64,000 nucleotides of DNA from assembly GCA_019637295.1 (NCBI GenBank), contig JAHBVX010000008.1:186001-250000 (forward strand). Direction: 5' to 3'. Below, piece after piece: positions 17,582-23,661 of the stretch. The DNA comes from Polyangiaceae bacterium. GTDB lineage: Bacteria; Myxococcota_A; Polyangia; Polyangiales; Polyangiaceae. The translations under genes were made by a program, and so were the position numbers. The notes beneath the pieces are model-generated. The model did not search any database. It worked only from the letters and a program-made list of their open reading frames with translations, and was not told the DNA's origin. Every line of letters starts with the position of its first letter. Positions within the stretch are counted from its first letter, which is position 1.

Positions 17582-18289
17582 ATGATGATTCGACGCATTA
17601 CGGCACTTTCTTTCGGCGCGGTTCTCGCGCTCTCGGCCGGCAGCGCCTTCGCGGATGACCACGAGGGTGGCGGCGAAGAGGCGGGTGGCGAGGAGAGCAG
17701 CGGGGCTGCGGCGGCTTCCACGTCAGGTGAGGCTTCAGCAAGCGTGGAAGGCCTCCCCGACAGCAAGGGAGACTTCGGCAAGTCCGGCCAAATCGCCATC
17801 TCCAGCGACTTCGAGCTCAGCCTCGAGAGCCGCAGCTCCAAGCCACCCCAGGGTGACGCGGGCGACTCGCGTTTGACCATCGCCATCGCGCCCGCCCTCG
17901 ACTACTTCGTCACCGACGGCGTGTCGGTCGGCGGCCAGATCGCGTTCTGGAGGGCCTCTCAGGGCGACGACAGCATGCAGATGATCGGGATCGGTCCGCG
18001 GGTGGGCTACAATCTCGGCCTGACCGAGACCATCTCCCTGTGGCCCAAGGTGGGCGTTCGCTACGCGATGCTCTCGACCAAGGCGGACGTTGGTGGCACG
18101 ACCGTGGAGTCCGACGGAAGCAAGCTGACACTGCAGGCCCACGTGCCGCTCCTGATCCACCCGGCCAAGCACTTCTTCATCGGCATCGGCCCAACCTTCG
18201 AGATGGACCTGATGAGCAAGGTCGAGGACAACGACGGCAACAAGGACACCGCGTTCGGTCTAGCCAGCGTGGTTGGCGGCTGGTTCTGA
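17582..18289 (+). CDS. outer-membrane beta-barrel protein
   Basis: A 235-residue protein with a Sec signal peptide (positive 'MMIRR', hydrophobic core, cleavage after 'GSAFA'). The mature N-terminus is an acidic Gly/Glu/Ser stretch. From residue 70 onward it alternates hydrophobic and polar residues in about eight strands ('LTIAIAPALDYFVTDGVSVG', 'IGPRVGYNLGLTETISLWPK', 'FFIGIGPTFEMDL') and ends in an aromatic residue ('VVGGWF'). This is the OmpW/OprF-like barrel pattern. An AGGAG ribosome site lies 7 bases before the ATG. It is followed by a strong intrinsic terminator, so it is probably a single-gene, well-expressed unit. Confidence 0.85.
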   Translation: MMIRRITALSFGAVLALSAGSAFADDHEGGGEEAGGEESSGAAAASTSGEASASVEGLPDSKGDFGKSGQIAISSDFELSLESRSSKPPQGDAGDSRLTIAIAPALDYFVTDGVSVGGQIAFWRASQGDDSMQMIGIGPRVGYNLGLTETISLWPKVGVRYAMLSTKADVGGTTVESDGSKLTLQAHVPLLIHPAKHFFIGIGPTFEMDLMSKVEDNDGNKDTAFGLASVVGGWF

Positions 18290-18313
18290 GTCCCTGACGC
18301 CAGCGACGAAGAG

Positions 18314-18348
18314 AGCGCTACCCCGCCGGTCGGGGTGGCGCTTTCTTT
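18314..18348 (+). terminator. rho-independent terminator
   Basis: A 12-bp stem (AGCGCTACCCCG / CGGGGTGGCGCT, one G-T pair) with a CCGGT loop is followed by a T-rich tail (TTCTTT), 25 bases after the beta-barrel stop. This is the best intrinsic terminator in the window. Confidence 0.88.
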
Positions 18349-18383
18349 GCGTTTGTGGGCGCCGGTCGCGTACACCCGAGGTG

Positions 18384-19730
18384 ATGCGCGCGCTCGTCGT
18401 CGCCCTGCTCGCCTGCGCCTGCACGCGCAGCGATCCGCCGGGGCCCGGCACCCGCGCCCCCGAGCGACCGGCCTCCGCCAGCGCCATGGCGCCCAACCCG
18501 CCCAAGGTCGCGACGCCCGAGCCGAGTCTGCCGGCGCAGCCCGCTGCGCCCGAGGACGCGCGGGTGGTGTATCCGTTCGAGCGCGTCCACTCGCCCATCG
18601 GGTCCGTCGTGCTGCGCTCGCTGCGCGAGATCGCAGCCCGGGAGCCGAAGCTGCGCGCCGACGCGTTCCTCAAGGTCGGCGACTCGATCACGTTCAGCGA
18701 CGACTCGCTGCACTGCTTCGGTCGGCGCGAGCCGGAGCTCGGCGCACACGGCGACCTCGCCGAGACCCTCGCGCGCTTCCGCGGCGAGGGAAGACGGCAG
18801 CCCTTCACGCGGCAGAGCCACGCCGCCAAGATCGGCTGGAGCGCGTGGCAAGCACTGAGCGGCAACCCCTCACCGGTCGACCGCGAGCTGCGCGACACCC
18901 GCGCGCGCTTCGCTCTCGTCCAGTACGGCACCAACGATCTGGAGATCGGCTCGGCTCACTACTTCGCGGACAGCCTCTGGAACATCGTCGATCACCTCAC
19001 GGCCAAGGGCGTGATCCCGGTGCTGTTCACCATCCCCGGCCGCGGAGATCGCAAGGACCGCGACGTCTGGGTGCCGCGCTACAACGCGCTGGTGCGCGGC
19101 ATCGCGCAGTCCGCGCAGGTGCCGCTGGTGGACTACCACCTCGCGCTGTCGTCGCTGTCGGGGCGCGGTCTCGGTCGCGACGGCATCCACCCGACGACCT
19201 ACCTCGGCCCGCGGGGACGTGACGGCTGCGCCCTCAGCGAGGAGGGCTTGCGCCACGGCTACAACACGCGCAATCGCCTGGTGCTGGAGGCGTTGTCGCG
19301 ACTCGGTCGCGCCCTGGAGACGGGCCAACCCCTCGACGACGACGAGCCCACGCGCAGCGGCGCGGGCACGTTCTCCGAGCCCCTCTCGATCGACGCGCTC
19401 CCCTACGCCGACGTGCTCGCGCACGACGCCGCCGAGCCGCGGGACGATCGCTACGCGTGCGCCGGAGCGCGTCCGGCTCCAGGCCCGGAGCGGGTCTATC
19501 GCTTCCGCCTGAGGGAGGCGACGACGGTGCGCATTCAGGGCTACGACCGGGGCGGACAGGTGGACCTGCACCTGCTCTCGAACCCGTCCCCGGAGGCGTG
19601 CGTGCGCAGCGCCGAGCGCGTGATCACCTCGCGCCTGCCGCCCGGGACCTACTTCGTCGTGGCCGACGAGGTGTCGCGCGAGAAGAAGCTCGTCCCGCCG
19701 CGCTCCTTGGTCGTGATCCAGGCGGAGTGA
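18384..19730 (+). CDS. SGNH/GDSL-type hydrolase lipoprotein
   Basis: A 448-residue protein with a very short lipoprotein signal ('VVALLACAC'). A Pro/Ala linker leads to an SGNH hydrolase domain: block I 'LKVGDSITFSDD' holds the nucleophile Ser, block III 'VQYGTNDLEIG' holds Asn, and block V 'GRDGIHPTTYLG' holds the Asp/His pair. The final 110 residues are beta-rich ('VYRFRLREATTVRIQGYD'), like a small carbohydrate-binding or pre-peptidase-type domain. It probably removes acyl groups from polysaccharide or lipid at the cell surface. The ATG at 18384 follows an in-frame GTG at 18381. It lies downstream of the terminator and so has its own promoter. Confidence 0.82.
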   Translation: MRALVVALLACACTRSDPPGPGTRAPERPASASAMAPNPPKVATPEPSLPAQPAAPEDARVVYPFERVHSPIGSVVLRSLREIAAREPKLRADAFLKVGDSITFSDDSLHCFGRREPELGAHGDLAETLARFRGEGRRQPFTRQSHAAKIGWSAWQALSGNPSPVDRELRDTRARFALVQYGTNDLEIGSAHYFADSLWNIVDHLTAKGVIPVLFTIPGRGDRKDRDVWVPRYNALVRGIAQSAQVPLVDYHLALSSLSGRGLGRDGIHPTTYLGPRGRDGCALSEEGLRHGYNTRNRLVLEALSRLGRALETGQPLDDDEPTRSGAGTFSEPLSIDALPYADVLAHDAAEPRDDRYACAGARPAPGPERVYRFRLREATTVRIQGYDRGGQVDLHLLSNPSPEACVRSAERVITSRLPPGTYFVVADEVSREKKLVPPRSLVVIQAE

Positions 19731-19736
19731 GCCCGA

Positions 19737-19765
19737 TTGCATAACCGACATAACAAGCATATAAT
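19737..19765 (+). promoter_or_regulatory. sigma-70-type promoter with three 9-bp-spaced CATAAC direct repeats
   Basis: TTGCAT (19737-19742) and TATAAT (19760-19765) are separated by exactly 17 bases. CATAAC at 19740 and 19749 and CATATA at 19758 form direct repeats with 9-base phasing across the promoter. The expected transcription start (19771-19773) coincides with the ATG at 19773, so the antitoxin mRNA would be leaderless. The repeats are a plausible operator for the ribbon-helix-helix antitoxin. Confidence 0.75.
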
Positions 19766-19772
19766 CCCCCCA

Positions 19773-20030
19773 ATGTCCTCCGCGCGCACCAGCCTGATGC
19801 TCGACGACGCGACGCGACGCGCCGCTCGGCAGCTCGCGCGTCACTACGACTGCGGTGTGTCGGAGGCGATCCGGCGGGCCGTGCAGAGCCACCGCGACGC
19901 GGTGGTGGGCGTCAATGCGGAGGAGCGCAAGCGCCGGCGCCAGGTCCTCGAGCGGCTCTTCGTGCTGTTCGACGGTACTGACCCTGAGGCCGAGGTGCGT
20001 CGGCTGAAGACCGAGGACGCCGGCTCTTGA
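19773..20030 (+). CDS. ribbon-helix-helix antitoxin (VapB-like)
   Basis: An 85-residue protein. The N-terminal 45 residues fit an RHH/Arc-MetJ DNA-binding fold: strand 'RTSLMLDDATRRAA', helices around 'QLARHYDCGVSEAIRRAVQSH'. The C-terminal 40 residues are charged ('EERKRRRQVLERLF') and probably wrap around the toxin. The ATG at 19773 lies 7 bases after the -10 box with no ribosome-binding site, consistent with leaderless translation; the longer frame would start inside the -35 box. The PIN toxin gene follows 22 bases downstream. RHH antitoxins normally repress their own promoter. Assignment rests on pairing and fold pattern. Confidence 0.85.
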   Translation: MSSARTSLMLDDATRRAARQLARHYDCGVSEAIRRAVQSHRDAVVGVNAEERKRRRQVLERLFVLFDGTDPEAEVRRLKTEDAGS

Positions 20031-20052
20031 GCCCCTTGGTCGCACTGACGCC

Positions 20053-20442
20053 ATGCGTGTTCACCTCGACACGGACTTCCTCGTGCACGCGCTGGGTCGT
20101 GCTGGTCCCGAACGGCAGCGTCTACTCCAGCTCGCGGACTCGGACGCGTTGGTCGAGATCAGTGCCGTCGCTTGGTACGAGCTCGTCAGAGGTCCGCGCA
20201 CGCCTCAGCAGCTCGCCGTCGCGCGCTCGTTCTTTCCCGAGGACGGCGGCGTCGTGCCGTTCTCGGAGGAGCTGGCGCTCCGAGCGGCGGAGGTCTTTCG
20301 CCTGCTCGGCTCCCCGCGCAAACGAGCCGCTGACATCGCCATCGGCGTGACCGCGAGCGTGATGGGCGCCACGCTCTTGAGCCGCAATCCAAGGGACTTC
20401 AAGGGTATCCCAGCTCTGGAACTCGAAGTGGTGGGTGAGTGA
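20053..20442 (+). CDS. vapC: PIN-domain ribonuclease toxin (VapC-like)
   Basis: A 129-residue PIN-domain protein. The acidic metal-binding residues are all visible: Asp6 in 'HLDTDFL', Glu43 in 'WYELVRG', Asp94 in 'AADIAIGVTA', and the Asn112/Asp115 region in 'SRNPRDFKGI'. VapC toxins cleave tRNA or rRNA and are silenced by the upstream antitoxin. Length and fold order are typical. It lies 22 bases after the RHH antitoxin and probably shares its transcript. The chromosomal module is flanked by ordinary genes with no mobility genes nearby. The target RNA cannot be predicted. Confidence 0.9.
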   Translation: MRVHLDTDFLVHALGRAGPERQRLLQLADSDALVEISAVAWYELVRGPRTPQQLAVARSFFPEDGGVVPFSEELALRAAEVFRLLGSPRKRAADIAIGVTASVMGATLLSRNPRDFKGIPALELEVVGE

Positions 20443-22845: not shown

Positions 22846-23661
22846 ATGCGCAGCGAGGCCCAGGTTCCCCCCAGCAAGCTGGAGGCCCGGCCGCACACCG
22901 CGTTCGATGGCACGCCCTACTTCGACGAGGAGCTCCAGGTGGCGCAGAGCCGAGCCCACAGCATCATGGCGGGTGAGTCGCTCCCCATCTTCTCGGCCAT
23001 CGCCACCGAAGCGGGCCTCGTGTTCATGTCGGACGAGCCCATCTGGTTTCTTCACCCAGAGACGGACGAACAGAAAGCGTTCTACGGCGACTGCGTGTTC
23101 GCGCGTCCCATCGAGACCACGCGCGCGACCGCGCGGGACTTGCTGCTCGTGATGGAGATCGTCAGCACCAACGACCGTCGCAAGGAGCTCAAGGACACGC
23201 GCTTCCAACACCTGCTGAACGAGTACAACGAGGTCCCCGAGTTCGCGCTGGTGTTTCCGGATCTCGACGACCCGCGCGCCCTCACCTGGCATCGGCTCGT
23301 CGACGGGCGCTACGAGGCGCAAGTCGTGGCGCCGGGTGGTCGCGTCACGTCGGAGGTCGTTGCCGGTCTCGAGCTCTTGGTGCTGCCACGAGAGCGCTGG
23401 TCCGACGGCTACAAGCTCGACGTCTACTACCGGGGCGAGCTACGCCCGCGGCTGCTGGGCGAGCGCGCACGCGCGAAGCAGGAGAAAGCGCGAGCGGAGC
23501 AAGAGAAGGCGCGAGCGGAGCAAGAGAAAGCGCGAGCGGAGCAGGAGAAGGCGCGAGCGGAGCAAGAGAAGGCGCGAGCGGAGCAAGAGAAGGCGCGAGC
23601 GGAGCGGCTCGCCCAGCGCCTGCGCGAGCTCGGCGTGGAGCCCGACGACGGCGGAGCCTAG
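22846..23661 (+). CDS. Uma2-family putative endonuclease with coiled-coil tail
   Basis: A 271-residue protein. Residues 1-205 fit the Uma2 (DUF820) group of PD-(D/E)xK nuclease-like proteins: 'FDEELQVAQSRAHS', the core 'DLLLVMEIVSTNDRRKELKDT' region (about residues 98-118) and 'VPEFALVFPDL'. The expected acidic/Lys residues are present in the EIVS...K stretch, though Tyr replaces no obvious partner. Residues 214-255 are five perfect copies of the heptad K-A-R-A-E-Q-E plus one partial, a charged single helix or coiled coil. The family is abundant in large genomes and poorly understood. Its last 4 bases overlap the convergent fbp gene. Confidence 0.75.
   Translation: MRSEAQVPPSKLEARPHTAFDGTPYFDEELQVAQSRAHSIMAGESLPIFSAIATEAGLVFMSDEPIWFLHPETDEQKAFYGDCVFARPIETTRATARDLLLVMEIVSTNDRRKELKDTRFQHLLNEYNEVPEFALVFPDLDDPRALTWHRLVDGRYEAQVVAPGGRVTSEVVAGLELLVLPRERWSDGYKLDVYYRGELRPRLLGERARAKQEKARAEQEKARAEQEKARAEQEKARAEQEKARAEQEKARAERLAQRLRELGVEPDDGGA
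23485..23589 (+). repeat. five 21-bp tandem repeats (coding heptads)
   Basis: Units start at 23485, 23506, 23527, 23548 and 23569, each encoding KARAEQE, with only silent AAA/AAG and CAA/CAG changes; a partial sixth unit follows at 23590. The array extends the Uma2-like protein with a charged helix. Confidence 0.93.

Follow-up and report, generated by a model that had tools for sequence, protein, structure and literature searches.

The question raised by this locus is how two small genes are expressed and controlled when they are preceded by a promoter-like sequence that runs almost into the first start codon and is overlaid by short direct repeats. The locus lies in a 64-kb stretch of DNA that was analyzed as a whole and is referred to here as the window. 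The best explanation of the whole appears to be a leaderless, autorepressed chromosomal vapBC operon in which the operator half-sites have been rearranged, and we put the probability of this reading at about 70%.

The identity of the two genes (Table 1) was established computationally. VapC matched the Pfam PIN domain (PF01850) above the cut-off, with an E-value of 2.2e-9, and its matches to the NCBIfam VapC models were far below their cut-offs. The structure model of VapC had a pLDDT of 95.4 and resembled known VapC structures, the best PDB match being VapBC2 of Rickettsia felis (E 5.8e-8). Residues D6, E43 and D94 do not vary across 30 rows of related sequences, and D115 is invariant in seven rows but varies among the 30. 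Encoded 22 nt 5' of vapC, the 85-aa VapB has the size and position of the small DNA-binding antitoxin of a VapBC pair. Searched alone against Pfam, VapB of the window gave no family at E 0.01; across the family, 21 of 31 VapB rows matched RHH_1 (ribbon-helix-helix, RHH), and the VapB profile picked up CopG-family and VapB26 structures. The VapB model has an extended start, RHH-like helices at residues 12–25 and 29–44, and then two C-terminal helices, and the PDB structures closest to it in shape are for the most part RHH proteins (Rv0298, CopG and MazE10; probability 0.94–0.98), with E-values of 0.29 or worse. The N-terminal strand is conserved, reading RTSLML in the window and RTTLLL or similar in relatives. 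The first-pass annotation of the locus as a VapBC module therefore holds, with the PIN toxin recognized by homology and fold and the RHH antitoxin by profile and family rows, and judged by sequence it is a real type II module. A plasmid collection queried with VapC gave no match at 1e-5, no relative was found in viral contigs with the VapC profile, and neither protein matched an anti-phage family library at E 0.1. Further downstream in the window, the ORF at 22846–23661 carries repeated KARAEQE-type heptapeptides at its end (about 23460–23600).

Table 1. Features of the vapBC locus, in positions of the window.
Feature	Positions	Strand	Remarks
TTGCAT, -35-like hexamer	19737..19742	+	3/6 to consensus TTGACA, TTG retained
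Half-site 1, CATAAC	19740..19745	+	Inside TTGCATAAC, letter-for-letter the same in relative L012
Half-site 2, CATAAC	19749..19754	+	9 bp 3' of half-site 1
Half-site 3, CATATA	19758..19763	+	4/6 to CATAAC; overlaps the -10
TATAAT, -10 hexamer	19760..19765	+	Sole TATAAT of the 64-kb window
CCCCCCA, -10 to start codon	19766..19772	+	Occupies the place of the relatives' second inverted-repeat arm
Predicted transcription start	19772..19773	+	Inferred from canonical -10 to +1 spacing; 0–1 nt leader
vapB (P0001), ribbon-helix-helix antitoxin, 85 aa	19773..20030	+	ATG at 19773
vapB stop to vapC start, 22-nt gap	20031..20052	+	
vapC (P0002), PIN-domain toxin, 129 aa	20053..20442	+	D6, E43, D94, D115

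Relatives of the module are scattered. Five loci with VapC identities of 64–71% (three from MAGs labelled Acidobacteria, Acidobacteriota or Thermoanaerobaculia, one from a gammaproteobacterial MAG and one from an uncultured bacterium) were obtained from a genome scan, along with a distant sixth, L013, with 35% identity. Another close relative, L031, came from a search of the phylum around L008, in which 30 of the 48 listed matches were made into loci. Among the 144 nearest genomes (own genome included), four others had a weaker VapC match, the best of which (L004; 54% over 85 residues) has an internal stop codon, and no vapB was found with it. Profile matches at 1e-12 occurred in 6 of 377 genomes of the module's own phylum, its own genome included, and were more frequent in the phylum around L008 (42 of 396). 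A search of the class of G455 (321 genomes, E 1e-30) returned the known locus and nothing else. This patchy distribution would fit horizontal spread. Among 59 genomes searched for PIN domains, one (G024) had 60 matches at 1e-8, the next having 23.

Upstream of vapB, the two promoter hexamers are separated by a 17 nt spacer, and TATAAT lies 7 nt before the ATG. The first-pass annotation called this a near-consensus promoter, and the coordinates, the spacing and the perfect -10 bear this out, but the -35, at three of six positions, does not. Canonical -10 to +1 spacing places +1 at A19772 or A19773. When every position of the 64 kb was scored on either strand with a sigma-70 matrix, the vapB promoter had the top score of 12.0, and the runner-up scored 8.7. 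The single TATAAT compares with 0.20 copies expected, and at least one copy appeared in 18 of 100 shuffles. A strict scan (at least 4/6 in each hexamer) found no promoter between 17500 and 22500, and missed that of vapB because its -35 matches in only three positions. By eye, no Shine-Dalgarno-like sequence was seen before vapB or vapC, and with the -10 ending 7 nt before the ATG, the annotated lack of a ribosome-binding site before the antitoxin was confirmed. The arrangement is that by which leaderless genes are recognized in sequence, a -10 some 6–7 nt from the start codon with the Shine-Dalgarno absent.

An ORF at 18273–19730 lies on the same strand, its stop 42 bp before vapB, and the scan listed no terminator-like site in between, so that vapBC might be transcribed chiefly from this upstream ORF on a leadered message, with the AT-rich stretch serving as operator or minor promoter. 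We consider this unlikely, since the best-scoring promoter of the 64-kb window is located in this very gap and promoters stand at this position in many other genomic contexts.

The position of the promoter was compared across PIN-linked antitoxins and ordinary genes, a promoter being counted as leaderless when it scored 6 or more and was located 5–8 nt before a start codon. Such promoters were present for 22 of 40 PIN-linked antitoxins of the own genome and its order (window included; 10/18 from the own genome and 12/22 from relatives), versus 15 of 442 ordinary genes (Fisher 1e-17), for which ORFs and codon-position G+C served to guess the starts, so that their leaderless count may be too low. 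For ordinary genes whose 40 upstream bp contain no called gene, the count was 13 of 319 (Fisher 1e-15). The distance peaked at 6 nt (9/18 own, 8/22 relatives); 18 of the 40 antitoxins were below the promoter score, and some high-scoring pairs stood at other distances, e.g., 13–18 nt. The own genome has 19 PIN loci, and those of relatives were sampled as at least 29 new loci, one per genome, from a list holding many more PIN matches; one of the 19, seven of 29 and, for ParE, 11 of 30 were dropped for a contig edge, lack of an ORF or a long neighboring ORF. Controls for the relatives came from 20 stretches of 19 genomes, only in part the same genomes as the PIN loci. ORFs linked to ParE/RelE (one from the own genome) gave 4 of 19, a weaker excess, so the leaderless rule does not apply equally to all TA types. 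By our reading, the promoter-positive antitoxins look like members of unlike families, RHH and Phd-like.

Of the 39 vapB genes compared, that of the window among them, 20 have a -10-like hexamer 5–8 nt before the ATG (19 under another start rule), compared with 0–6 (0–9) in six control bins of the same genes, although the rows hold near-identical genes and are not independent. A Shine-Dalgarno core was found in two of the 39, counted within the vapB set alone. The comparison of loci excluded L004 and L007 (no vapB-like ORF), L013 (low score), L002 and L003 (by hand) and duplicates, and L058–L062 were outside the set. In L008, L009, L011 and L031, AT-rich DNA abuts the ATG, e.g., TATACATATTAT-ATG, and the gammaproteobacterial L010 has CATAAT 6 nt before it.

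Could these AT-rich hexamers be operator half-sites that happen to resemble -10 boxes, with the real starts elsewhere? Operator-like and -10 letters do coincide in the window and its relatives, but the excess concerns -35/-10 pairs spaced 16–18 nt apart, is greatest at 6 nt from the start codon and is found in antitoxins whose upstream sequences are unlike, and we regard this alternative as very improbable. The message of the vapB antitoxin is very likely leaderless, and the annotated start on the antitoxin ATG stands as a prediction, backed by the position statistics of PIN-linked antitoxins and the rank of the promoter. The idea of a leaderless design peculiar to this module finds no support: PIN-linked antitoxins of the genome and order have their promoter at the leaderless distance more often than at any other, and Mycobacterium tuberculosis has 32 leaderless TA pairs among the 37 for which a primary start was mapped (Cortes et al. 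2013, PMC3898074). Nor is leaderlessness simply common in the own genome, an explanation rejected on the low count among ordinary genes. In this group of bacteria, the design looks common for PIN-linked antitoxins. On contig C12 of the same genome (~796.2–797.6 kb), two unlike PIN TA modules (L084 and L087) stand divergent, back to back, and each has a separate leaderless-type promoter.

The first-pass annotation also described three CATAAC-like repeats at 9-base spacing over the promoter. Their positions and two exact copies are as described, and the third matches in just four of six positions. The 64 kb contains two copies of CATAAC, both at the vapB promoter and 9 bp apart, and as 2.9 are expected by chance, the count by itself is within chance. 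The three-copy pattern with up to three mismatches is unique to the vapB promoter in the window (0.01 expected), the search pattern having been derived from that site itself and the half-site picked after inspection of the window and L012. When the 60 bases upstream were dinucleotide-shuffled 500 times, seven shuffles gave an equally good three-copy repeat of any period from 6 to 13, i.e., the direct repeat is above shuffles, but moderately, not overwhelmingly. The exact repeat pair was found at seven places in viral contigs, four of them with identical surrounding DNA; no RHH antitoxin was evident by eye in the stretch displayed after each, and these copies were judged to be chance. In the own genome, the promoter region of L099 carries TTGACCAAGC twice, and L098 has TTAGTT-like copies, both being Phd-like by our reading, so that direct-repeat operators may extend beyond the module of the window.

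The contrast drawn earlier with the palindromes common for such antitoxins is seen in this comparison too: the window has no inverted repeat with arms longer than 3, and all six closest relatives have inverted ones. These are of CATA type, with arms of 5–10 bp, and extend to the start codon. CATATnATATG is present in L008, L009, L011 and L031; L010 has CATAA-5-TTATG at the start codon plus TGCATATCATATGCA upstream; and L012 has a perfect 20-bp palindrome, CATAACATATATATGTTATG, with CATAAC/GTTATG arms. A repeat as good and reaching the ATG was seen, per 1000 shuffles, 0 times for L012, 15 for L011, 55 for L031, 86 for L009, 174 for L008 and 438 for L010, so most of these inverted repeats are unremarkable singly, and no more than two or three of them beat shuffles. 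The case for inverted repeats is carried by L012, by L011 and by the recurrence of a single motif at one position across the six relatives, which have a common ancestry. Half-site counts reached the value of the relative in 550 (L009), 83 (L008) and 71 (L031) of 1000 shuffles, and enrichment is absent from some relatives, L009 among them. In L033 and L034, from the phylum search around L008, an operator-like TATGGCCATA is present twice, and the second copy overlaps the start codon and encodes Met-Ala-Ile, so that the operator may have a part in setting the N-terminal residues of the antitoxin.

The half-sites of the window suggest kinship with those of its relatives: TTGCATAAC is identical in L012, inside the CATAAC/GTTATG palindrome, and half-site 3, GCATATAAT, is identical to the left part of GCATATAATATGC in L011. 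The comparison suggests, as the simplest account, that the right arm was lost (its place is now CCCCCC), two same-strand half-sites lying upstream at 9-bp steps; we read the window operator as inverted half-sites rearranged to direct ones. The candidate half-sites, which overlie the -35 and -10, are plausible as a VapB operator; relatives carry inverted versions of them, for which the shuffles give mixed support. A rival account, to which we give somewhat less than even odds, is that the 9-bp direct repeats are accidental, and that the operator has decayed and VapB reads only GCATATAAT or a sequence within vapB. The modest strength of the repeat against shuffles would agree with this, as would the missing inverted arm and the fact that most of the relatives' inverted repeats are singly within chance. 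It is opposed by the exact TTGCATAAC in L012, whose palindrome was never equaled in 1000 shuffles, and by the conserved N-terminal strand of VapB, given which the half-site should be conserved too.

Under the favored reading of a leaderless operon with rearranged half-sites, vapBC would be a chromosomal type II operon directly behind the upstream ORF, with its control signals within the 42-bp gap. RNA polymerase would start at the vapB ATG or one base earlier, giving a leaderless mRNA from which the antitoxin would be made by leaderless (70S-type) initiation. Lying 22 nt further on, with no evident ribosome-binding site, vapC would probably be translated by reinitiation, and hence made in smaller amount than VapB. 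At this junction, vapB and vapC overlap by one base (TGATG) in the six close relatives, where the window has the 22-nt gap, so coupling of vapC translation should be weaker in the window. We infer that VapB, alone or with VapC, occupies the CATA half-sites over the -35 and -10 and represses its own promoter; when VapB is lost, both promoter and toxin would be freed, and the PIN RNase, predicted to be toxic, would cut RNA. In the relatives, inverted half-sites across the start codon would serve as the operator, and in the window CCCCCC would stand for the downstream arm, with three half-sites in the same direction.

Beyond this locus, and with the odds rather against it, one may speculate that leaderless type II antitoxins are general outside the mycobacteria, and that superposing operator, promoter, transcription start and start codon in ~30–40 bp makes such modules portable, with RHH operators that can be rebuilt from inverted to direct while autorepression is kept. 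If true, the portability would come from needing no host-specific ribosome site. If mapped starts agree, the preponderance of leaderless antitoxins in M. tuberculosis is no peculiarity of mycobacteria and recurs in a distant phylum with unlike antitoxins, and why antitoxins avoid leaders becomes a testable question, candidate reasons being host portability, translation under stress or with normal initiation disabled, and compact autoregulation. The window and its relatives would also be a natural experiment on a change of RHH operator orientation.

As for known systems, the leaderless principle in TA modules is already established, and the bacterial group and the operator arrangement look new. 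Zheng et al. 2011 (PMC3160421) used the same signal, a -10 next to the start codon, and their predictions placed leaderless genes in 8 of the 33 genomes from delta-proteobacteria and in all three from acidobacteria; the main text of that paper contains no word beginning with 'toxin'. No report of leaderless antitoxins in myxobacteria or acidobacteria was found in titles and abstract openings of the open-licence literature, among the matches listed. The proposal that MazF generates ribosomes favoring leaderless messages has, according to PMC12274833, not been sustained, and is accordingly not used as support. The closest parallel is with the leaderless TA modules of M. tuberculosis, where the TA operon is likewise transcribed from the start codon and a TANNNT -10 motif is centered 7–12 bp upstream of start sites (PMC3898074). 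The starts were measured there and are predicted here, in an unrelated phylum, and a -35 is often present here, whereas a conserved -35 was not found there. As in VapBC26 of M. tuberculosis and the Klebsiella structures 7BY2 and 7BY3, an RHH antitoxin stands beside a PIN toxin of the same fold, but toxin identity to these structural matches is just 20–24%. Antitoxin targets are usually palindromic according to a review (PMC4803016), unlike the direct half-sites of the window. The ParB (omega) protein of pSM19035, as cited in PMC9499535, is an RHH protein that binds arrays of 7-bp repeats about equally well in different orientations; the window resembles it in pairing an RHH protein with an array of short repeats, here candidate ones, and differs in the 9-bp period and in its PIN partner, which that partition protein lacks. 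Such tolerance of orientation would make a change from an inverted to a direct operator mechanically possible.
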